Source: an uncultured Eubacteriales bacterium (GTDB lineage: Bacteria; Bacillota; Clostridia; Oscillospirales; Oscillospiraceae). Taken from it: 64,000 bases of DNA. The stretch's first letter is position 1. Each line of letters begins with the position of its first letter. Both the position numbers and the translations under genes were made by a program. Under the pieces are notes generated by a model. It saw nothing but the letters and a program-made list of their open reading frames with translations. It did no database searches and had not been told where the DNA came from. Below are positions 4,300 to 43,948 of this stretch, piece by piece. Location of the stretch: the NCBI GenBank assembly GCA_900317425.1, contig ONGR01000006.1, positions 19,305-83,304 of the forward strand. Reading direction: 5' to 3'.

Positions 4300-4791
4300 T
4301 TACCTGTTGTACTGGGCCTCGACGGCGGCGTTCTTCTCGAGGACCTTCTCCAGCCCCTCCCGCCGGGCCTCCTCCAGCTTCCGAGCCAGGGTCTCGTCGG
4401 ACAGAGCCAGGATCTGGATGGAAAGCAAAGCGGCATTGGCGGCCCCGTCGATGGCCACCGTGGCGACGGGGATGCCGCTGGGCATCTGCACGGTGGACAG
4501 CAGGGCGTCAATGCCGTCAAGAGAGGATCTGATGGGAATACCGATCACGGGCAGGGTGGTGTTGGCCGCAATGGCGCCGGCCAGATGGGCGGCCTTGCCT
4601 GCGGCCGCGATGATCACGCCGATCCCGTTCTCCCGGGCGCGGCGGGCAAACTCCGCCGTCTCGGCGGGGCAGCGGTGGGCGGAATACACGTGGACCTCCA
4701 CGCCCACGCCGTACTGCTCCAGCGTGTCGATGGCCTTCTTCACCACGGGCAGATCGCTGTCGCTGCCCATGATAACCGCAACTCTCTTCAT
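4300..4791 (-). CDS. purE: N5-carboxyaminoimidazole ribonucleotide mutase PurE
   Basis: The 163-residue class I PurE interconverts N5-CAIR and CAIR. It carries MGSDSDLPVVKKAIDTL at the start, the YSAHRCPAETAEFARRA motif with the catalytic His, and IIAAAGKAAHLAGAIAANT, PVIGIP. I place the start at 4791 (MKRVAVIMGS) because AAGGAG lies about seven bases upstream and homologues begin there. The frame stays open to 4941, but that upstream part is the riboswitch and terminator, not protein. It is the first gene of the operon. Confidence 0.96.
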   Translation of the reverse strand: MKRVAVIMGSDSDLPVVKKAIDTLEQYGVGVEVHVYSAHRCPAETAEFARRARENGIGVIIAAAGKAAHLAGAIAANTTLPVIGIPIRSSLDGIDALLSTVQMPSGIPVATVAIDGAANAALLSIQILALSDETLARKLEEARREGLEKVLEKNAAVEAQYNR

Positions 4792-4840
4792 ACGCACACT
4801 CCTTTTCGTCTCATCTGCAAAGGGGTTTGATCGCGGCGCA

Positions 4841-4890
4841 AAAAAAACAAAAAAGGACAGTCGCATTCCACTGAAAAGAATGAGGCTGCC
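4841..4890 (-). terminator. Rho-independent terminator of the ZTP riboswitch expression platform
   Basis: On the minus strand a stem with arms GGCAG..CATTC and GAATG..CTGTC is followed by a long U-rich run (complement of 4841-4856). The GGCAG of the first arm (complement of 4886-4890) is also the conserved end of the riboswitch motif, so forming the ligand-bound aptamer and forming the terminator should be mutually exclusive. This fits ligand-dependent antitermination. Confidence 0.85.
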
Positions 4891-4962
4891 CAGACGGTCG
4901 ACAAAAACGATATAACATCCGGTTCCCCTGTGGTGATCCACATTTCCGTCAGTTGCCGGTGC
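4886..4962 (-). promoter_or_regulatory. ZTP (pfl) riboswitch upstream of purE
   Basis: Read on the minus strand, the leader has the hallmarks of the pfl/ZTP class: an ACTGACGG segment (complement of 4946-4954), a GTGG..ACCAC hairpin, the run ACCACAGGGGAACCGG (complement of 4919-4934), and the highly conserved closing motif CCGTCTGGGCAG (complement of 4886-4897). The class senses ZTP/ZMP, which accumulates when 10-formyl-THF is short, and usually switches on folate and purine genes. Its position between a strong promoter and a terminator, just before purE, agrees. Confidence 0.9.
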
Positions 4963-5003
4963 TCCTTCTTTGTTTTGCTGTCGCTGCTGTTTTCTATAGA
5001 GGA

Positions 5004-5032
5004 ATTATCTCAAAAAACCGCCCCTCTGTCAA
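5004..5032 (-). promoter_or_regulatory. Sigma-A promoter of the purine operon
   Basis: On the minus strand a consensus -35 TTGACA (5027-5032) and -10 GATAAT (5004-5009) are separated by exactly 17 bases. The site lies about 40 bases ahead of the riboswitch, so the transcript would begin just before the aptamer. Confidence 0.88.
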
Positions 5033-5137
5033 TTCCCGAACGGTGCCGCGATATGTAGAATAATCGCCTCCTCAGTCGCCGCAAATTGTCAGATTTGTTC
5101 ATTCCCCGTTCTTTTTGCCCTTTCGTGAAAAAAGGGC

Positions 5138-5181
5138 TGGACGGATCGCCGCTTTAGGTATATAATATGCCATATTATATA
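5138..5181 (+). promoter_or_regulatory. Promoter with perfect palindromic operator over the -10
   Basis: A perfect inverted repeat, arms TATATAATATG (5159-5169) and CATATTATATA (5171-5181) around one central C, contains the -10 hexamer TATAAT (5161-5166). A weak -35 TGGACG (5138-5143) lies 17 bases upstream. The start of the acyltransferase gene follows about 48 bases later. The overlap suggests repression by a dimeric DNA-binding protein; no candidate regulator gene is adjacent. Confidence 0.7.
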
Positions 5182-5228
5182 ACGCGGTTTATAACACAAG
5201 AAGCTTTGTGAAAGGAGGGCTGCAGGCC

Positions 5229-6515
5229 GTGAAAAACGATTCGCGCCAGCTGCGCTGGATGCGGCTGGACAACGCTGCCCTCATCTTCCCGGCGGCCCTC
5301 CGCCGGCACTGGAGCAACGCCTTCCGCATCTCCTTCACCTTCCGGGACCCGGTGGATCCGGCCGTCCTTCAGCAGGCGCTGGACGCCGCCGCGCCACGCT
5401 TCCCCTCCATCTGCGCCCGGCTGCGGCGCAGCGCCTTCTGGTACTATCTGGAGGAGCTGGAGCATACCCCTGCCGTCCGGGAGGACAGCTATCAGCCGCT
5501 GGTGGGCATGAAGCGCGCCGATATCCGCCGCTGCGCCATCCGGGTGCTGTATTACCGCAGCCGCATGGCGGTGGAATTCTTCCACGCCGTCACCGACGGC
5601 ACCGGTGCTCTGATCTTCGCCAAGAATCTGGCGGCGGAGTACGTCCGCCGGCGCTATGGGGCGGACGTGCCCTGTGAGCAGGGCGTGCTGGATCTGACCG
5701 AGCCGCCCCGGCCCGAGGAGCTGGAGGACAGCTTCCAGAAGAACGCCGGCCCCGTGGCGGCGCCCCGGGACGACGGCAACGTCTACCGCTTCGGCGGCAC
5801 CGTGGAGCCGGACCGGTTCCTCCACGTGACGCTGGGCATGGTGGACAGCGAGCTGCTCCACAGCCGGGCCAAGGCCCATGGCGTCACCGTCACCGCCTAT
5901 CTCACCGCGGTGCTGCTCTCGTCCATTCTGGCCCTCCAGGCCCGGGACGTGCCCCGGCGGAGCAGGCGCAGGCCGGTGAAGGTGCAGATCCCGGTGAATC
6001 TCCGCCAGCTCTACGGCGGCCAGTCCCTGCGGAACTTCGTGGCCGTGGCCAACATCGGCGTGGATCCCCGGCTGGGGGACTACACCTTCGAGGAGCTGGT
6101 GCAGATCGTCCATCACCAGATGCAGCTGGCCATCACCGCCAAGAATATGCAGACCATCTTCACCCCCAACGTCAACGACGCCCGAAACCCCTTCCTCAAG
6201 CCGGTGCCGCTGTTTTTGAAGAACCTCATCATGCGGGCCGTGTTCGATGCCATCGGCGAGCGGGTGGCCAGTCTGACCCTGTCCAATCTGGGCGCTGTCC
6301 GGCTGCCGGAGGCCATGGCCCCCTACGTGGAGCGGGTGGAGTTCGTGCTGGGGCCCCAGTCCACCGCCCCCTATAACGCCAGCGTCACCAGCTGGCAGGG
6401 CAGGACCTTCATCAACATCGTCCGCAACACGGTGGAGCCCCGGCTGGAGCGGGAGTTTTTCACCACCCTGGTGAAGCTGGGCTTCCACGTGAAGATCGAG
6501 AGCAACAACAAGTGA
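5229..6515 (+). CDS. Putative acyltransferase of the condensation/alcohol acetyltransferase superfamily
   Basis: The protein of about 428 residues has the superfamily's catalytic HxxxDG motif in EFFHAVTDGTGAL (around residue 120) and the later structural region with VKVQIPVNLRQLYGG and SNLGAVRLP, as in alcohol acetyltransferase/PapA-like enzymes (AATase-like). I prefer the GTG at 5229 because AAAGGAGGG sits at 5211-5219; an earlier in-frame GTG at 5208 would put this Shine-Dalgarno inside the gene. The acceptor is unknown. It is followed ten bases later by a zinc-ribbon membrane protein, a pairing that suggests a joint function, perhaps acylation of a membrane lipid or glycan (inference). Confidence 0.75.
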   Translation: MKNDSRQLRWMRLDNAALIFPAALRRHWSNAFRISFTFRDPVDPAVLQQALDAAAPRFPSICARLRRSAFWYYLEELEHTPAVREDSYQPLVGMKRADIRRCAIRVLYYRSRMAVEFFHAVTDGTGALIFAKNLAAEYVRRRYGADVPCEQGVLDLTEPPRPEELEDSFQKNAGPVAAPRDDGNVYRFGGTVEPDRFLHVTLGMVDSELLHSRAKAHGVTVTAYLTAVLLSSILALQARDVPRRSRRRPVKVQIPVNLRQLYGGQSLRNFVAVANIGVDPRLGDYTFEELVQIVHHQMQLAITAKNMQTIFTPNVNDARNPFLKPVPLFLKNLIMRAVFDAIGERVASLTLSNLGAVRLPEAMAPYVERVEFVLGPQSTAPYNASVTSWQGRTFINIVRNTVEPRLEREFFTTLVKLGFHVKIESNNK

Positions 6516-24920: not shown

Positions 24921-27311
24921 ATGAAAAATTCTCGTAAAATTCCATCTGTCATTCTGTGCCTGTGCGTGCTGCTGGCATTTCTGCCCACGGTGCTGCTGCC
25001 TCTGGCGGGGGCCACGGCGGCGGACGATCTGGAGGAGCGGATGCTGGGCCAGCTGAGCGCCCAGTACGAATCCAACGGCAATCCCGGCGCCATCGCCGAG
25101 ACCGCCGGCGATCCCGGCGGCAAGTCCTACGGCATGTATATGTTCTCCTCCAGCGCCGGATCGCCCAGGGCCTTCTTCGAGTGGTGCCAGGGCTCCTCCA
25201 ACGCCTACTACCGGGGCATCGGCAACACCCTCAGCGAGGCCTATTACTACGGCTCCCCCGGCTACGGCGCCCGGTTTGACGCCGCGTGGCGGCGTCTGGC
25301 GGAGGAAAACGCCGACGGCTTCGGCCGGGCCCAGCGGGACTTCGTGCGGTCGGAATACTACGACGTCTGCATCGACGCGCTGAAGGACAAGGTCCCCGCC
25401 TTCGACATCTCCAACTACAGCATCGCCCTGCGGAACGTGATCTGGTCCCGGGCCGTGCAGCACGGGGCCTACAGCGCCGCCAATATCTGCCAGCGCTCCT
25501 TTGACGCCATGGGCGGCTTTGCCAACCAGTCCGAGAGCGAGCTGATCAACGCCATCTACGCCGAGAGCGGACGGCTGACCACCGACGCCTCCACCAAGAT
25601 GAGCGGCGCTCTGGCCCGCAGCTACGGCGTGGAGGGCTACGCCCTGGCCTACTACAGCGGCTGCTCCGCCGACATCCAGCTGGGCGTATACATCCGGCTG
25701 CGGATCAACGAGCCCGCCAAGGCCCAGGCCATGCTGGCCGAGTACGGCTACAACGACGCGCCGCTGGGCGAGGGCAGCTATCTCATCTGCCCCGACGCCA
25801 ACACCAATCTGGCCGTGGGCGCTCAGGGCTCCGGCCTCACCATCAACGAGCGCAAGGGCGGCGCCAACCAGCAGTTCTATCTGGTCTACTACGCCAGCGG
25901 CTACTACACCATCACCAACGCCGACAGCTCCCTGCGCCTCACCGCCGGGAAGGGCACGGTCTCCGCAGCCGCCCCCACCGCCGAGAGCAATCAGCTGTGG
26001 GCCCTGGTCCGGGACGGCAGCCGCTTCGCCCTGAAGAACCGGGGCACCGGCCAGTATCTCACCGCCAGCAGCTTCTCCGCCGGCGGCAAGGTCTCCGCCG
26101 GTGACACCGCCGCGTCCTGGCAGCTGATCCCCGGCGCCGCCAACTGGACCCTCTCCGGTGCCTCCTATCCCACCTACGCCAACGGGCTCCAGGTAGGCTC
26201 CTCCAGCTTCCCCTTCCGGGGCACGCTGCGCAGCACCTATCCCATCACCTACGTCCACGCGGAGATCCGCAGCGGCTCCGGAAAGGCCCTGTATTCCTCC
26301 ACCGCCAGGCCCAACACCACCTACTATAATCTGGCCAACATGGACGACGACATGGCCTTCAGCCGTCTGAGCGCCGGCAACTATTCCCTGGTCATCACCG
26401 CCGACGACACCTCCGGCAGCCACTACGAGCTGATCTCCCCCTTCTACGTATCCGACGGCACCACCTACGTGGTGACCTTCGACCCGGCAGGCGGAACCTG
26501 CTCCGTCACCAGCCGGCCCTTCGTGCCCGGCCAGATGTTCGGCGATCTGCCCGTGCCCACCAAGTCCGGCAGCACCTTCGTGGGCTGGTATACCGCCGAC
26601 GGCACCAAGATCACCGCCTCCAGCATCACCCCGGCCCACAACGTGACCCTGACCGCCCGGTACAGCACGGAGTATTCCTACACCTTCTACGATTACGACG
26701 GCAAGACCGTTCTGGCCTCCGGCAAGCTGGCCGAGGGCGCCGTCATCCCCCAGCCCGCCGATCCCTCCCGACCCGCCACCGACACCGTCTACTACACCTT
26801 CAGCGGCTGGAAGGGCTACACCCCCGGCATGAAGATGGGCACCAGGAACGTGTCCTTCACCGCCACGTATGAGGAGCATCCCATCGTGGACGTCCGGGAG
26901 ATGACCGCCACCGGCCGGTACCGTCTGGCGGACGGCTACCTGCGGAATATCCCGGTGGGCACCAAGGCCGAGGACATTCTGGCCACCCTGGTGCCCAAGG
27001 AGTACATCACCATCAACAGCGGCGGCAAGTCCGTCAGCGGCCCGGTTGGCACCGGCATGACCGTGGACTTCGCTCCGGGCGGAAAGGTGGCCCAGACCGC
27101 CGTGATCGTGGTCACCGGCGACGTCAACGGCGACGGCAAGGTCACCCTGACCGACATGGTGCAGATCCGGTCCCATCTGCTGGGCCGCACCACCCTCAAG
27201 GGCGCCTATCTCCAGGCGGCGGACCTCAACGGCGACGGCAGTCTCACTTTGACCGATATGGTTCAGCTACGTGCGTTTATGCTTGGCCGTAGCGAGATTA
27301 TTCCGAGGTAA
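24921..27311 (+). CDS. Secreted dockerin protein with lysozyme-like N-domain, ricin-type lectin and InlB-type repeats
   Basis: The 796-residue protein has a signal peptide (cut near residue 34), an N-terminal domain (about 37-275) starting with YESNGNPGAIAETAGD and SYGMYMF, similar to putative cell-wall hydrolases of phage and clostridia, and a ricin-type beta-trefoil (about 283-412, with QFYLVYYASGYYTITN and LKNRGTGQYLTA). A beta domain (about 413-510) and two Listeria-Bacteroides (InlB B-type) repeats (about 514-652, VGWYTADGTKI) follow, then a linker (655-730) and a type I dockerin (733-790) with two calcium loops, GDVNGDGKVTLTDMVQ and DLNGDGSLTLTDMVQL. It should bind the cohesin made by the next gene. 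The N-domain assignment is tentative. Confidence 0.85.
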   Translation: MKNSRKIPSVILCLCVLLAFLPTVLLPLAGATAADDLEERMLGQLSAQYESNGNPGAIAETAGDPGGKSYGMYMFSSSAGSPRAFFEWCQGSSNAYYRGIGNTLSEAYYYGSPGYGARFDAAWRRLAEENADGFGRAQRDFVRSEYYDVCIDALKDKVPAFDISNYSIALRNVIWSRAVQHGAYSAANICQRSFDAMGGFANQSESELINAIYAESGRLTTDASTKMSGALARSYGVEGYALAYYSGCSADIQLGVYIRLRINEPAKAQAMLAEYGYNDAPLGEGSYLICPDANTNLAVGAQGSGLTINERKGGANQQFYLVYYASGYYTITNADSSLRLTAGKGTVSAAAPTAESNQLWALVRDGSRFALKNRGTGQYLTASSFSAGGKVSAGDTAASWQLIPGAANWTLSGASYPTYANGLQVGSSSFPFRGTLRSTYPITYVHAEIRSGSGKALYSSTARPNTTYYNLANMDDDMAFSRLSAGNYSLVITADDTSGSHYELISPFYVSDGTTYVVTFDPAGGTCSVTSRPFVPGQMFGDLPVPTKSGSTFVGWYTADGTKITASSITPAHNVTLTARYSTEYSYTFYDYDGKTVLASGKLAEGAVIPQPADPSRPATDTVYYTFSGWKGYTPGMKMGTRNVSFTATYEEHPIVDVREMTATGRYRLADGYLRNIPVGTKAEDILATLVPKEYITINSGGKSVSGPVGTGMTVDFAPGGKVAQTAVIVVTGDVNGDGKVTLTDMVQIRSHLLGRTTLKGAYLQAADLNGDGSLTLTDMVQLRAFMLGRSEIIPR

Positions 27312-27777
27312 TAGGAGGGCCATAGTATATGAAAGTTTTTAAGCGCCTTGGCTTTGCGTTTCTTCTGTCGCTGCTCCTTCTTTTCTCCTTTCCTGTTCAA
27401 GCACATGCAGCTGGAATGGGAGCCAGTTTTTCTGGGAGTAGTTCTCTCCGAGCAGGTGAGCGTGTTACTGTTACGTTCTATGTGAGTGGGGCATCCAATC
27501 TTTTGTCTATCCGTGCCACAGTGAATTATGATAGCAGTATGCTCGAGTATATTGATTCCTACTGCAATATTGGCGGTAGTTGGTCGATGGACGGAACAAC
27601 TACACTTCTACTTGAGGATGGGAAGCAGGATTCTCCATTTAGTGGCGGTAGTGTTTTTTCTGTTGTCTTTTATGTAAAAGATTCCGTTTCATCTGGGTCG
27701 ACTGTTTCTGCAAGTGTCAGTGGGATCAGCGCTACAGACGGAAATACAGATTATTACGCTGATTCTGTTTCCTGGTC
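27242..27777. other. Low-GC mosaic segment covering end of dockerin repeat 2 and the cohesin domain
   Basis: GC content drops sharply: hand counts of 60-base rows give 48 percent (27241), 43 percent (27481), 47 percent (27541) and 40 percent (27661), against 63 percent in rows 27121 and 27841. Codon choice switches at the same points, from GAC/CTG/GTG/CGG to GAT/TTG/CTT/GTT/CGT/AGT. The segment starts inside the second dockerin calcium repeat (about codon 774) and ends at the cohesin C-terminal border (about codon 150 of the next gene). Confidence 0.85.
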
Positions 27778-29119
27778 CGCCACCATCGCCGCGCCGTTGA
27801 GCGGCAACGCCAATCTGGCCAGCCTCTCCTGCGGCAACGCCACCCTGTCCCCCTCCTTTTCCGCCGACACCACCAGCTACTCCTGCACGGTGCCCTATGA
27901 GGTCACGTATCTGGATCTCTACTACTCCGCGGCCGACTCCGGCGCCTACGCCTGGGTGTCCGGCAACGATCTGAGCGTGGGCGACAACACCGTCTCCGTG
28001 GGTGTGGAGGCTGCCAACGGCAACACCAAGTACTACAACATCTACGTGACCCGGCAGCAGGACCCCAACTACAAAGCCGGCACCAACGCCCTGCTGGAGT
28101 CCCTGTCCCCCAGCAGCGGGCGGCTGAGCCCCGGCTTCAAGCCGGAGACGAAGAACTACGTGGTCTACGTGCCCTTTGAGGTGGAGGAGTTCTCCCTCAG
28201 CGGCGTGGCCCAGGACAGCAAGGCCCTGTCCGTCACCGAGGCCTCCGCCAAGCTGGAGCCCGGCGACAACGAGCTGACCGTCACCTGCACCGCCGAGGAC
28301 GGCAAGACCAAGGAGACCTACACGGTCCACGTGTACCGCATGCCCGCCTTCGCCGGCGTGCTGCCCACCATCACCGATCCCAACTCCGCCGATTACAGCG
28401 CCGTGGACGCCGCTCTGGCCAAGGTGCCCGCCAATCTGAGTCTCTACACCAACGAGAGCGTGGAGGTGCTCAAAAAGGCCATGGACGCCGTGGTCCGGAA
28501 TTACGGCCCGGACAAGCAGGCCGAGGTGGACGCCATGGCCAAGGCCATCGAGGACGCCATCGCCGGCCTGGAGAAGAAGCCGGATCCGGCGGACCTCCCC
28601 CTCCGGGAGCGGGTGATGGCCGTGGCCAACGAGGTCGTGACCATCCCCTATCTCAGCAGGCTCACCGGCCCCCTGCCTCTGAAGTACCTGGCCATCGCCG
28701 CCCTGGCGATCCTGGCGCTGCTGATCTACGTTATCGGCACGCTGGTAGGCCGCCACGCCGGCAAGAAGAAGACCCTACGGGCCATGGCCCGGGACGAAAC
28801 GCCCCGGGAGGAAGTCCCCGAGGCGGCGGAAGCGCCTGCGGAGGTTCCCGCGCCGGAGGAAGCGCCCGCGATAGAGGAAGCCCCTGTGGAGCGGGCCATC
28901 CCCGCCCCGCCGGCAGAGGAGCCTGTGGCGGAAGCCACGGAGGAGGCCCCGGAGCCGGCAGTGGAGACCCCGGCGGAAGCTCCCGAGGGACCCGGGCCGG
29001 AGCCGGCGGAGCCCGTGACCCCCGACACGGCGGAGACCCCGGCGGAGACCCCGGCGGAGGATAATCCGCTGGAGAGCATGTCGCTGGACGAGCTGCTGGA
29101 GGACATCAAGAATATGTAA
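27329..29119 (+). CDS. Membrane-anchored cohesin protein with two cadherin-like domains
   Basis: The 596-residue protein has a signal peptide (cut after AHA, about residue 27), a cohesin domain (about 28-150: GERVTVTFYVSGASNLLSIRATVNYD, FSVVFYVKD), two cadherin-like beta-sandwich domains of the PF12733 type (about 160-245 and 255-335, each with an NxxLxxL start and a TxxYxxxVPxE core), a helical stretch (340-440), one transmembrane helix (about 448-470) followed by GRHAGKKK, and an acidic Pro/Glu/Ala tail ending MSLDELLEDIKNM, predicted inside. It would hold the dockerin protein at the cell surface. AGGAGGG precedes the ATG; the gene starts 17 bases after the dockerin gene. Confidence 0.88.
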   Translation: MKVFKRLGFAFLLSLLLLFSFPVQAHAAGMGASFSGSSSLRAGERVTVTFYVSGASNLLSIRATVNYDSSMLEYIDSYCNIGGSWSMDGTTTLLLEDGKQDSPFSGGSVFSVVFYVKDSVSSGSTVSASVSGISATDGNTDYYADSVSWSATIAAPLSGNANLASLSCGNATLSPSFSADTTSYSCTVPYEVTYLDLYYSAADSGAYAWVSGNDLSVGDNTVSVGVEAANGNTKYYNIYVTRQQDPNYKAGTNALLESLSPSSGRLSPGFKPETKNYVVYVPFEVEEFSLSGVAQDSKALSVTEASAKLEPGDNELTVTCTAEDGKTKETYTVHVYRMPAFAGVLPTITDPNSADYSAVDAALAKVPANLSLYTNESVEVLKKAMDAVVRNYGPDKQAEVDAMAKAIEDAIAGLEKKPDPADLPLRERVMAVANEVVTIPYLSRLTGPLPLKYLAIAALAILALLIYVIGTLVGRHAGKKKTLRAMARDETPREEVPEAAEAPAEVPAPEEAPAIEEAPVERAIPAPPAEEPVAEATEEAPEPAVETPAEAPEGPGPEPAEPVTPDTAETPAETPAEDNPLESMSLDELLEDIKNM

Positions 29120-41871: not shown

Positions 41872-42648
41872 ATGGCTCAACATCAGATCCTGAACAGTAA
41901 GCTCAGTCTGGACAGCGATATCCCCCTGTATACCCAGCTGGTGGGTATCATCAAACACCATATCTCCTCCGGCGCTCTGCAGGTGGGGGAACTGCTCCCC
42001 TCCGAATCGGAGCTGTGCCGCGCGCTGGACATCAGCCGCAACACGGTGCGCCAGGCCATCGGCGAGCTGGAGGACGAGGGACTGGTGGTCCGCAAGCGGG
42101 GCAAGGGCACCTTCGTGGCTGACCCCAACACCAACCACCGGGGCGTCCGCTACTCCTTCACCACCGAGGTCTCCTCCATGGGCAAGCACCCCTCCTCCAC
42201 CCTGGTGGATTTCGGGGTGATCCGGCCGGGGGCCGACATCTGCAAAAAGATGGACCTGCAGGACGGCACCAGCGTCTACTGCTTCACCCGGGTCCGGAAC
42301 GTGGACGGCAAGCCTCTGATCCTGGAGACCAGCTACTATCCCCAGTACATCTACCCCAACCTGACCCGGGACATGGTGCAGACCCACAGCTTTTACAGCC
42401 TGCTCTACCACGTGGGCATCACCCCCGCCTCCGCCGAGGAGACCTACGAGGCCGTGGTGCTCAACGCGCCCCAGGCACACCTTCTGGGCACCCGGGAGGG
42501 CGCCTGCGCCTTCTGCCACCAGCGCCGCACCCGCACCGAGGACGGCCGGATCTACGAGTACACCCGCAGCTACATCCGGGGCGACCGGGTCAGGCTGGAC
42601 GTGCACATGCAGAAAAGCGGCGTCACCTTCGCCCGCACCATCGACTGA
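41872..42648 (+). CDS. GntR-family (HutC/UTRA type) transcriptional regulator
   Basis: The 258-residue protein has a winged helix (about residues 14-80: IPLYTQLVGIIKHHISSG, LPSESELCRALDISRNTVRQAIGELEDEGLVVRKRGKGTF) and a UTRA-type ligand domain (about 100-245), with TRVRNVDGKPLILETSYYP and the closing EYTRSYIRGDRVRLDVHM. Effectors for this group are often phosphorylated sugars or amino acids. It lies between the two GAPDH genes and so may control one or both (inference). The ATG at 41872 follows GAAAGGA by ten bases. Confidence 0.9.
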   Translation: MAQHQILNSKLSLDSDIPLYTQLVGIIKHHISSGALQVGELLPSESELCRALDISRNTVRQAIGELEDEGLVVRKRGKGTFVADPNTNHRGVRYSFTTEVSSMGKHPSSTLVDFGVIRPGADICKKMDLQDGTSVYCFTRVRNVDGKPLILETSYYPQYIYPNLTRDMVQTHSFYSLLYHVGITPASAEETYEAVVLNAPQAHLLGTREGACAFCHQRRTRTEDGRIYEYTRSYIRGDRVRLDVHMQKSGVTFARTID

Positions 42649-42660
42649 TATGCCCCCGCA

Positions 42661-42689
42661 GCTCCCGCCGGAAGGCGGGAGCTTTTTTT
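42661..42689 (+). terminator. Terminator after the GntR regulator
   Basis: GCTCCCGCC / GGCGGGAGC with a GGAA loop and seven Ts, 12 bases after the stop. Confidence 0.9.
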
Positions 42690-42820
42690 GCCGCGGCACT
42701 TGTAGAAGTAGTTTCAAATGTACGGAATGTTTGGGGAATATTTTGTGCAAAACTGTCAGCAATGTCCATTTCCACCAAGAAGATTTTGCATTTTTTGTAT
42801 AAAATTTTTGCCAAAAGGGG

Positions 42821-42848
42821 CAGACAGGAGATTTTTTCATGCTATAAT
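42821..42848 (+). promoter_or_regulatory. Promoter of the second gap gene
   Basis: CAGACA (42821-42826) and TATAAT (42843-42848) are 16 bases apart, and TGC before the -10 gives an extended element. The surrounding 42690-42820 stretch is AT-rich and holds no recognised operator. Confidence 0.7.
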
Positions 42849-42904
42849 AAATTTGGAACTAAAAAGCCGTCAAAAATGACGGAACATAGGAAGGGGAACA
42901 TCTC

Positions 42905-43948
42905 ATGGCAATCAAAATTGGTATCAACGGTTTTGGCCGCATCGGCCGCGTCATCCTGCGAATCCTGTCCGAGCATCCCGAAAAGTACGATATCTGCGGC
43001 ATCAACCTGCGCAAGGCGGATCTGCCCTACATGGTGTATCTCATCAAGTATGACTCCGTTTTCCGCAACTTCAACGGCACCGTGGAGCATGAGGACGGCC
43101 ATCTGGTCATCAACGGCCACAAGATCAAGGTCTTCAGCGAGAGCGACGCCGTCATGATCCCCTGGCACACCTGCGGCGCGGAGTACATCATCGAGTCCAC
43201 CGGCGCCTTCAACACCATGGAGAAGGCCATGCGCCACTTCAAGGGCGGCGCCAAAAAGGTCATTATCACCGCCCCCGCCAAGGATGAGGTGACCCCCACC
43301 TTCGTGTACGGCGTCAACCAGGAGCTGTATCAGAAGGATATGGACGTGGTCTCCAACGCCAGCTGCACCACCAACTGCCTGGCCCCTCTGGCCAAGGTCA
43401 TCCACGACGAGTTCGGCATCGAGCAGTCCCTGATGTCCACCATCCACGCCTCCACCGCCAAGCAGAAGGCTGTTGACTCCCGCGGCGGCAGCGACTGGCG
43501 CACCGGCCGTTCCATCCTGAACAACATCATCCCCTCCTCCACCGGCGCCGCCAAGGCTGTGGGCCGCGTCATCCCCTCCCTGAAGGGCAAGATGACCGGT
43601 ATGTCCTTCCGCGTGCCCACGGCGGACGTGTCCGTGGTGGATCTGACCGCACGTCTCAGCCGCACCACCACCTACGCCGAGATCTGCTACGCCATCCGTC
43701 ACGCCTCCGAGACCTACATGAAGGACATCATCGCCTATACCACCGACCAGGTGGTGTCCACCGATCTGATCGGCAACAACTGCCCCTGCATCTTCGACGA
43801 GACCGCCGGCATCATGCTGGATCACGACTTCGTCAAGCTGATCGCCTGGTACGACAATGAGTGGGGTTACAGCAACATGGTGATCCGCATGCTGGAGCAC
43901 ATGTACGAAGTGGACCACGCCGACGAGGAAGTTCCTGCTGAAAAGTAA
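42905..43948 (+). CDS. Glyceraldehyde-3-phosphate dehydrogenase paralogue with altered cofactor pocket
   Basis: The 347-residue protein starts [20 protein letters not shown] and keeps the catalytic [17 protein letters not shown] and [16 protein letters not shown]. In the cofactor pocket it reads [21 protein letters not shown]: the Asp that selects NAD in the first paralogue is Leu followed by Arg. Bacillus GapB, which prefers NADP and works in gluconeogenesis, also lacks this Asp, so NADP use is likely but not proven. The C-terminus is longer and acidic ([11 protein letters not shown]). It has its own promoter and terminator. Confidence 0.92.

Follow-up and report, generated by a model that had tools for sequence, protein, structure and literature searches.

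A low-GC block from dockerin repeat 2 through the adjoining cohesin as a probable interspecies exchange cassette

The window, the whole stretch of 64,000 nucleotides that was analysed, lies within contig C17 of G000, a draft genome of 1.87 Mb in 39 contigs. It carries two plus-strand genes separated by 17 bases, the first encoding a dockerin protein of 796 aa and the second a cohesin protein of 596 aa. The first gene (24921..27311, +) encodes a secreted protein in which the open reading frame, Pfam and PDB sequence matches place, in this order, a VgrG3-C-like domain (PF21277, 1.1e-30), a ricin-B lectin (PF14200, 4.4e-10), an InlB-type repeat (PF09479, 2.1e-14) and a C-terminal type I dockerin (PF00404, 1.8e-12). 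Its N-terminal domain matches PDB chains 4noo_A and 4nso_A (named VgrG protein and effector protein), and its dockerin met the PF00404 profile at 47.7 bits (cut-off 22.9) in an alignment that shows both calcium loops. Dockerin repeat 1 lies at 27120..27188 (+, residues 734-756) and repeat 2 at 27222..27290 (+, residues 768-790). The second gene (27329..29119, +; ORF and Pfam, PF00963 at 9e-9 and PF12733 at 4e-19) encodes a signal peptide, a cohesin (27413..27790, +), two cadherin-like domains, a hydrophobic helix and an acidic Pro/Ala-rich tail, and the PF00963 cohesin profile was met at 36.1 bits (cut-off 24.1). The signal peptides of both proteins, the membrane helix and the ribosome-binding site discussed below were judged by eye.

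VgrG3-C-like domains are known for muramidase-type activity, and a surface-tethered muramidase is the natural, if tentative, guess for the first protein, its function being inferred. The enzyme, secreted and bearing a dockerin, and the cohesin, anchored in the membrane, are likely partners; we infer their mutual binding, for which there are no binding data. The test for a cellulosome was not met, with a single cohesin stretch in the cohesin protein and totals of 3 cohesin and 3 dockerin matches in G000. Across the genus (n = 32 genomes; dockerins only counted), 23 genomes have 1-3 dockerin matches, one has none and eight have 4-8. Elsewhere in G000 (loci L065, 5808-10399, and L064, 4591-10596), contig C38 carries another dockerin ORF with a cohesin ORF behind it, and contig C7 carries a cohesin ORF of 2002 codons. 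Both of these cohesin ORFs reach the contig end with identical last residues, as if a repeat had broken the assembly.

The initial annotation had described a drop in GC from 63% to 40-48%, returning to 63%, over 27242-27777, with codon choice shifting at the same positions; the block was said to begin in dockerin repeat 2, to cross the gene boundary and to stop at the cohesin C-terminal border, the remainder of both genes being native. Each of these claims held, with the refinement that the block takes in only the latter half of the dockerin, repeat 1 being native. In 120-base windows, GC falls from 61-68% to 42-49% at ~27240 and is 59-68% again from ~27720-27780. When the third codon positions of both genes were scanned for change-points, one segment emerged, 27240-27769 (170 codons), with a GC3 of 0.38 inside and 0.91 in the remainder of both genes; the lnL gain was 116.9, against a permutation maximum of 10.5 (30 permutations per genome, scanned at every third start only). 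This segment (27240..27769, +), hereafter the block, comprises the latter part of repeat 2, the gene boundary with its ribosome-binding site, the signal peptide and the cohesin, and its delimitation as an exchanged unit rests on the change-point, the tree conflict and the sliding identity. The left edge falls inside repeat 2 (residues 768-790), where 10-codon windows go from 90% to 50-60% GC3; on the right, the block ends at residue 147 of the second protein. By part, GC3 is 97% in repeat 1 (residues 730-758), 38% in the cohesin and 91% in the first cadherin domain.

Across the 64 kb, 536-base windows (n = 63465) have a mean GC of 0.646 (sd 0.041), and the six lowest all begin at 27235-27242, the block as initially delimited (0.453) being among them. 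The GC of the block is extreme for the 64 kb yet not isolated, because a non-overlapping window at 42683, the lowest off the block, has 0.479, over a gene start and the DNA preceding it. What is unusual is the sharp composition step within two coding genes. Other low-GC stretches, at 4666-5318 and 42533-43274, likewise lie over gene starts and preceding DNA; the latter includes a gene from ~42890 whose product resembles, by eye, glyceraldehyde-3-phosphate dehydrogenase.

For comparison, a search of the genus gave a match in 31 of 32 genomes, several of them solely in the repeated middle domain. Both genes were located in 29 operons including that of G000, and in none for G001, G006 and G031; the remote operons of G021, G025 and G002 were left out of the trees, leaving 26 compared, and the weak-match loci L062 and L063 were left out of the analysis. 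In G015, G029 and G003 a contig end truncates the first gene, and these species fill 27-49% of the flank columns. A low-GC cohesin occurs in 2 of the 26 operons, G000 (GC3 38) and G015 (GC3 41), both with flanks near 90, while cohesin composition matches the flanks in the other 24. In G015 the low-GC segment starts at the signal peptide and stops near cohesin residue 121; it does not extend border to border, and its edges are softer than those of G000. No low-GC stretch was found over the cohesin-coding parts of the other cohesin genes of G000 on C7 and C38 (54-64% GC in 120-base steps). These data bear on one account of the low GC, namely local selection for AT-rich DNA near the start codon. 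In its favour, GC3 of the signal-peptide stretch lies below that of neighbouring domains in many of the 26 operons. Against it, the block is 530 bases long with a sharp end at a domain border, composition follows the flanks in 24 of the 26 orthologous cohesins, and the tree conflict described below would be left unexplained. We consider this account all but excluded.

Separate trees of the block (first protein 762-796, cohesin 29-153) and of its flanks (first gene 33-757, second gene 156-340) conflict, and AU tests rejected congruence both ways. In the flank tree, G000 and G023 are sisters (100/99). In the block tree, G000 groups with G015, G005 and G029 (99/99), and G010, G030 and G023 group with G018, G004 and G017 (98/94). 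Among the 7 close species we refer to G000, G015, G005 and G029 as class A and to G010, G030 and G023 as class B. The block data rejected G000+G023 (p 2.1e-5) and G015+G005+G030+G029 (p 3.7e-5), and the flank data rejected class A (p 9.5e-36) and class B (p 3.9e-36). Where A and B were tested as named groups, the p values err on the optimistic side, since the classes were named after viewing the alignment; the G000+G023 group, by contrast, was named from flank identity. A tree of the neighbouring genes truA, GNAT, ppt and lysE (19 species, 10 of them under half filled; upstream DUF4015 gene excluded) likewise recovered G000+G023 (100/100), together with G005+G030 (94/90), and its AU tests rejected class A (p 2e-8) and class B (p 2e-55). 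rpoB was dropped as a species marker because it had no match in G003, G004, G005, G017 and G023.

The same conflict was apparent in the identity of G000 and G023 along the DNA, which is 44-57% in most block windows, 71-88% elsewhere in the first gene and 88-98% in the downstream genes. At the protein level, the two share 96-98% identity in TruA, LysE and the GNAT protein, 93% in the ppt product, 83% in the upstream DUF4015 protein and 73% in the first protein. Orthologues with the same composition and a tree congruent with the flanks, which would have refuted an exchange, were looked for among the 26 operons and not found. As a separate observation, a second drop in G000/G023 identity at 28384-28759 corresponds to a domain of ~76 aa (residues 345-420 of the cohesin protein) that is largely absent from G023, and copies related to it were found in other proteins of the genus.

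Repeat 2 and the cohesin share their class in all 7 close species (A in four, B in three). We found 14 alignment columns diagnostic for A|B, all of them inside the block: in the first protein 780, 784 and 787, and in the second 30 (where B has a gap), 58, 60, 62, 63, 89, 90, 96, 106, 107 and 135. Repeat 1, residues 690-727 and the cadherin domains hold no diagnostic column of these 7 species. Among the 35 possible 4|3 splits of 7 species, the runner-up to A|B has 1 block column. At the nucleotide level, 35 of the 37 columns that separate A from B lie within 27258-27732 (28 of 30 without seven gap columns). Over the 7 species, repeat 2 and cohesin distances were correlated at r 0.83 (partial 0.80 given the cadherins; Mantel p 0.0002, a control with few independent units), and those of repeat 1 and the cohesin at r 0.01. 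Over all 26 species, the values were r 0.80 (partial 0.62) for repeat 2 and r 0.63 (partial 0.29) for repeat 1, so repeat 1 is not free of association with the cohesin at depth. One exception was found in the wider set, G020, which combines an A-like repeat 2 with a B-like cohesin. The co-inheritance of repeat 2 and cohesin among the close species is thus shown. The claim of the initial annotation that a matched pair had been exchanged by recombination is supported by the tree conflict, the composition and the joint class change, and applies to repeat 2 and the cohesin, not to the whole dockerin.

The cohesin model is of high confidence (mean pLDDT 95.3) and all beta; its best Foldseek match is the cohesin 5nrm_A (E 2.9e-8, TM 0.77), the 17 top matches are cohesins or cohesin complexes, and the jelly-roll fold test was met. 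In cohesins, the 8-3-6-5 sheet is the dockerin-binding face and is touched by both dockerin helices (PMC5429695). Of the diagnostic cohesin residues, model strand 3 carries 60-63 and strand 6 carries 96; 89-90 fall between strands 5 and 6, 106-107 where strand 7 begins and 135 where strand 8 ends, with 30 and 58 outside strands 3-8. The dockerin model is weak (pLDDT 60.4), with helices at the expected places only, and puts residues 780-787 in the predicted last helix. The two dockerin repeats resemble each other at 15-17 of 23 residues in class A and at 12-13 of 23 in class B; by analogy, this could reflect dual versus single binding modes, a possibility we raise without binding data.

A second exchange was observed in G030, a relative of G005 that carries the class B block. 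DNA identity of G005 and G030 is 82-84% over first-gene residues 500-680 and 61-71% over cohesin 29-153. For G010 and G030 it is 66-72% over first-gene residues 500-729, 76-89% over the cohesin (82-89% at 29-120) and 70-77% in the cadherin windows. In sliding windows, G030 was closer to G010 in 5 of 5 windows over residues 26-160 of the second protein, and closer to G005 or equal in 29 of 30 windows elsewhere. Repeat 2 of G030 contains the run GGCCAGCTGACGCTGAC in common with G005 and then switches to the B sequence, which places its left border inside repeat 2, ~20 bases from that of G000. The composition of G030 is native throughout. Since G030 is native yet exchanged, the exchange is independent of base composition, and low GC is one of its signs and not its cause.

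Two further explanations can be weighed against these data. One is in-place co-evolution of repeat 2 and cohesin under selection, without any exchange, the classes A and B arising repeatedly. Interacting surfaces can indeed co-evolve, and the operon evolves fast, as seen from the 73% G000/G023 identity of the first protein versus 83-98% for the neighbour products. However, co-evolution leaves unexplained both the GC3 step from 0.91 to 0.38 and the G010/G030 cohesin identity, which exceeds that of their first-gene and cadherin windows, and the AU tests reject congruence; we regard it as very unlikely. The other is a chimeric assembly, in which the block would stem from another organism of the same sample. 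A draft in 39 contigs leaves room for this, and no reads are available. Nevertheless, both reading frames continue through the block, the incoming repeat 2 and cohesin are of one class, native flanks enclose a low-GC cohesin of class A in G015 (a goat-omasum assembly) too, and the G030 exchange has native composition. There is accordingly very little to recommend a chimera.

The block is bordered by conserved DNA. In the 1060-column alignment of the 7 species, the four most conserved non-overlapping 24-nt windows are 27144-27167, 27114-27137, 27771-27794 and 27213-27236, two of which fall in repeat 1 and one at each border. The left anchor (27213..27236, +), just outside the block, ranks fourth at 0.88 against a median of 0.66, and the right anchor (27771..27794, +), at the cohesin C-terminal border, ranks third at 0.93. 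These anchors could possibly serve homologous recombination, but the evidence is suggestive only, because the border DNA is also under protein constraint. The two borders are not equally supported. Of the 20 nucleotide sites that unite G000 and G023 against the other five species, 14 lie to the right of the block, 6 inside it and 0 in the 180 bases to its left; the right border is therefore backed by the G000/G023 pair, and the left border mainly by composition and class. In sliding comparisons, repeat 2 of G000 tends towards class A (-0.22), unlike repeat 1 (+0.02). G000 also leans away from G023 in first-protein windows 701-735 (-0.15) and 736-770 (-0.05) and in second-protein windows 151-185 (-0.02) and 251-285 (-0.03), and has no class A lean at the signal peptide (+0.03) or at cohesin 101-135 (+0.01). 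Taken with the class data, the locus met the test for a cross-gene specificity cassette: a variable block over a gene border, containing both likely contact parts, with conserved DNA on either side.

No donor of the block was identified. Phage records (DNA and protein) and plasmid records (protein) gave no match. Two protein searches of viral contigs yielded 35 and 7 candidate stretches, none of which was confirmed, and a search of viral contigs by border pattern yielded one contig (L157) with the right-anchor pattern and no credible match to either protein. Among genome contigs, three loci only were recovered, matching G015, G005 and G029. In whole-genome searches, the family gave matches in 11 of 400 genomes, genus g49 in 30 of 136, the order in 10 of 394 and the set of relatives in 28 of 396, and no donor; these sets are draws from larger groups, and matches were counted at the limits used. 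Scored with the class A profile, the four members of the class reached 225-240 bits; G010 came next with 134.5. A low-GC dockerin-cohesin tandem of another family (L143, 28% GC) is distant. By pattern search only, a dockerin motif just 5' of a cohesin was also seen in other genera and families of the order (L110, L114, L141, L142 and L143; 28-68% GC), and from this spread the tandem is either old or mobile.

An alternative to recent import is that A and B are old alleles held across species by balancing selection, with recombination at the borders only and the low GC as a relic. In its favour, both classes are present in both sub-clades, and the flank tree shows 4 or more changes of class (A, B and C; 10 labelled species). 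On the other hand, we infer that a GC3 of 0.38 should by now have drifted towards 0.9, and in G005 and G029, also of class A, the cohesin has a GC3 of 92% and 80%. For G000 the old-allele account is unlikely and a later import fits better; for the other species, old alleles remain partly compatible with cassette exchange.

We thus favor, with a probability of roughly 0.75, a cross-species swap of a cassette of repeat 2, signal peptide and cohesin by homologous recombination, with the partners kept matched. The DNA from inside repeat 2 through the cohesin would behave as an allelic cassette, and homologous recombination in the conserved DNA at both sides would swap it, as a unit, for that of another species. 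Replacement as a unit would mean that dockerin helix 3 and the cohesin change together while the enzyme, the calcium loops, repeat 1 and the anchor stay. Most likely, G000 would have gained its class A cassette from a low-GC source that was not sampled, in place of an earlier one and after the split from G023. The recombination route and the timing are inferred. So is the single event that the initial annotation proposed, with which the unbroken low-GC stretch across the gene boundary agrees. Its further claim that specificity changes without breaking the partnership likewise remains an inference, without binding data.

Interacting proteins are hard to alter because both sides must change together, and the apparent solution here is that the contact parts adjoin across the gene border and are exchanged as one piece. 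A swap of this kind may reserve the enzyme for cells whose cohesin matches, or may help to evade binding of the exposed cohesin by phage or host. Alternatively, the exchange may be neutral and remain viable since the two halves move together. A bolder reading, which we offer as a possibility only and without binding data, is a private-docking system under diversifying selection, in which a lysozyme-like enzyme is held only by cells with the matching cohesin. Cassette exchange would then change the code and keep lock and key matched, perhaps making the system a structural counterpart of quorum-sensing pherotypes.

By analogy, the closest known systems are the specificity cassettes of comQXP and agr. 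The comQXP region of Bacillus is polymorphic, with a tree at odds with that of gyrA (PMC4408185), and is described as highly polymorphic with a "conserved 3-prime region of comP" (PMC12935306). As in the present operon, adjoining polymorphic genes carry both sides of a partnership, there of signalling, and their tree conflicts with that of a housekeeping gene (PMC4408185). The variable part of comQXP is known to cross gene borders. The difference is that comQXP pairs a modified peptide with a receptor within one species, whereas here two structural domains are exchanged between species. In the agr specificity groups of staphylococci, the variable end of one gene, a small gene in full and the beginning of the following gene change as a block; agr, however, serves quorum sensing, and here the matter is surface tethering of an enzyme. 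With cellulosomal type I pairs the operon shares the cohesin fold, the type I dockerin repeats and the location of the class-diagnostic residues, which fall in the final helix of the dockerin and, in the cohesin, at or next to strands 3, 5-6, 6, 7 and 8. It differs in that two genes make up the operon, with a single dockerin and a single cohesin, and no multi-cohesin scaffoldin in the pair. The cohesin-like modules of Clostridium perfringens (2jh2, 2w1n) likewise represent a cohesin fold outside the cellulosome, and to our knowledge no exchange cassette has been described in them.

The initial annotation knew of no such exchange in small cohesin-dockerin operons, and we found no matched exchange of half a dockerin with a cohesin named in the literature searched (at the level of titles and abstract starts, with few subscription papers). 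The cross-gene specificity cassette is therefore known in kind from comQXP and agr, and its cohesin-dockerin form appears, within that search, to be new. The classes provide ready-made paired cohesin-dockerin variants for tests of how specificity evolves, and possibly a natural source of orthogonal docking pairs. Lastly, in three other operons of the genus (L052, L053 and L058, of G009, G007 and G013) the dockerin repeats are near-identical to each other, at 18-22 of 23 residues, as if homogenised.
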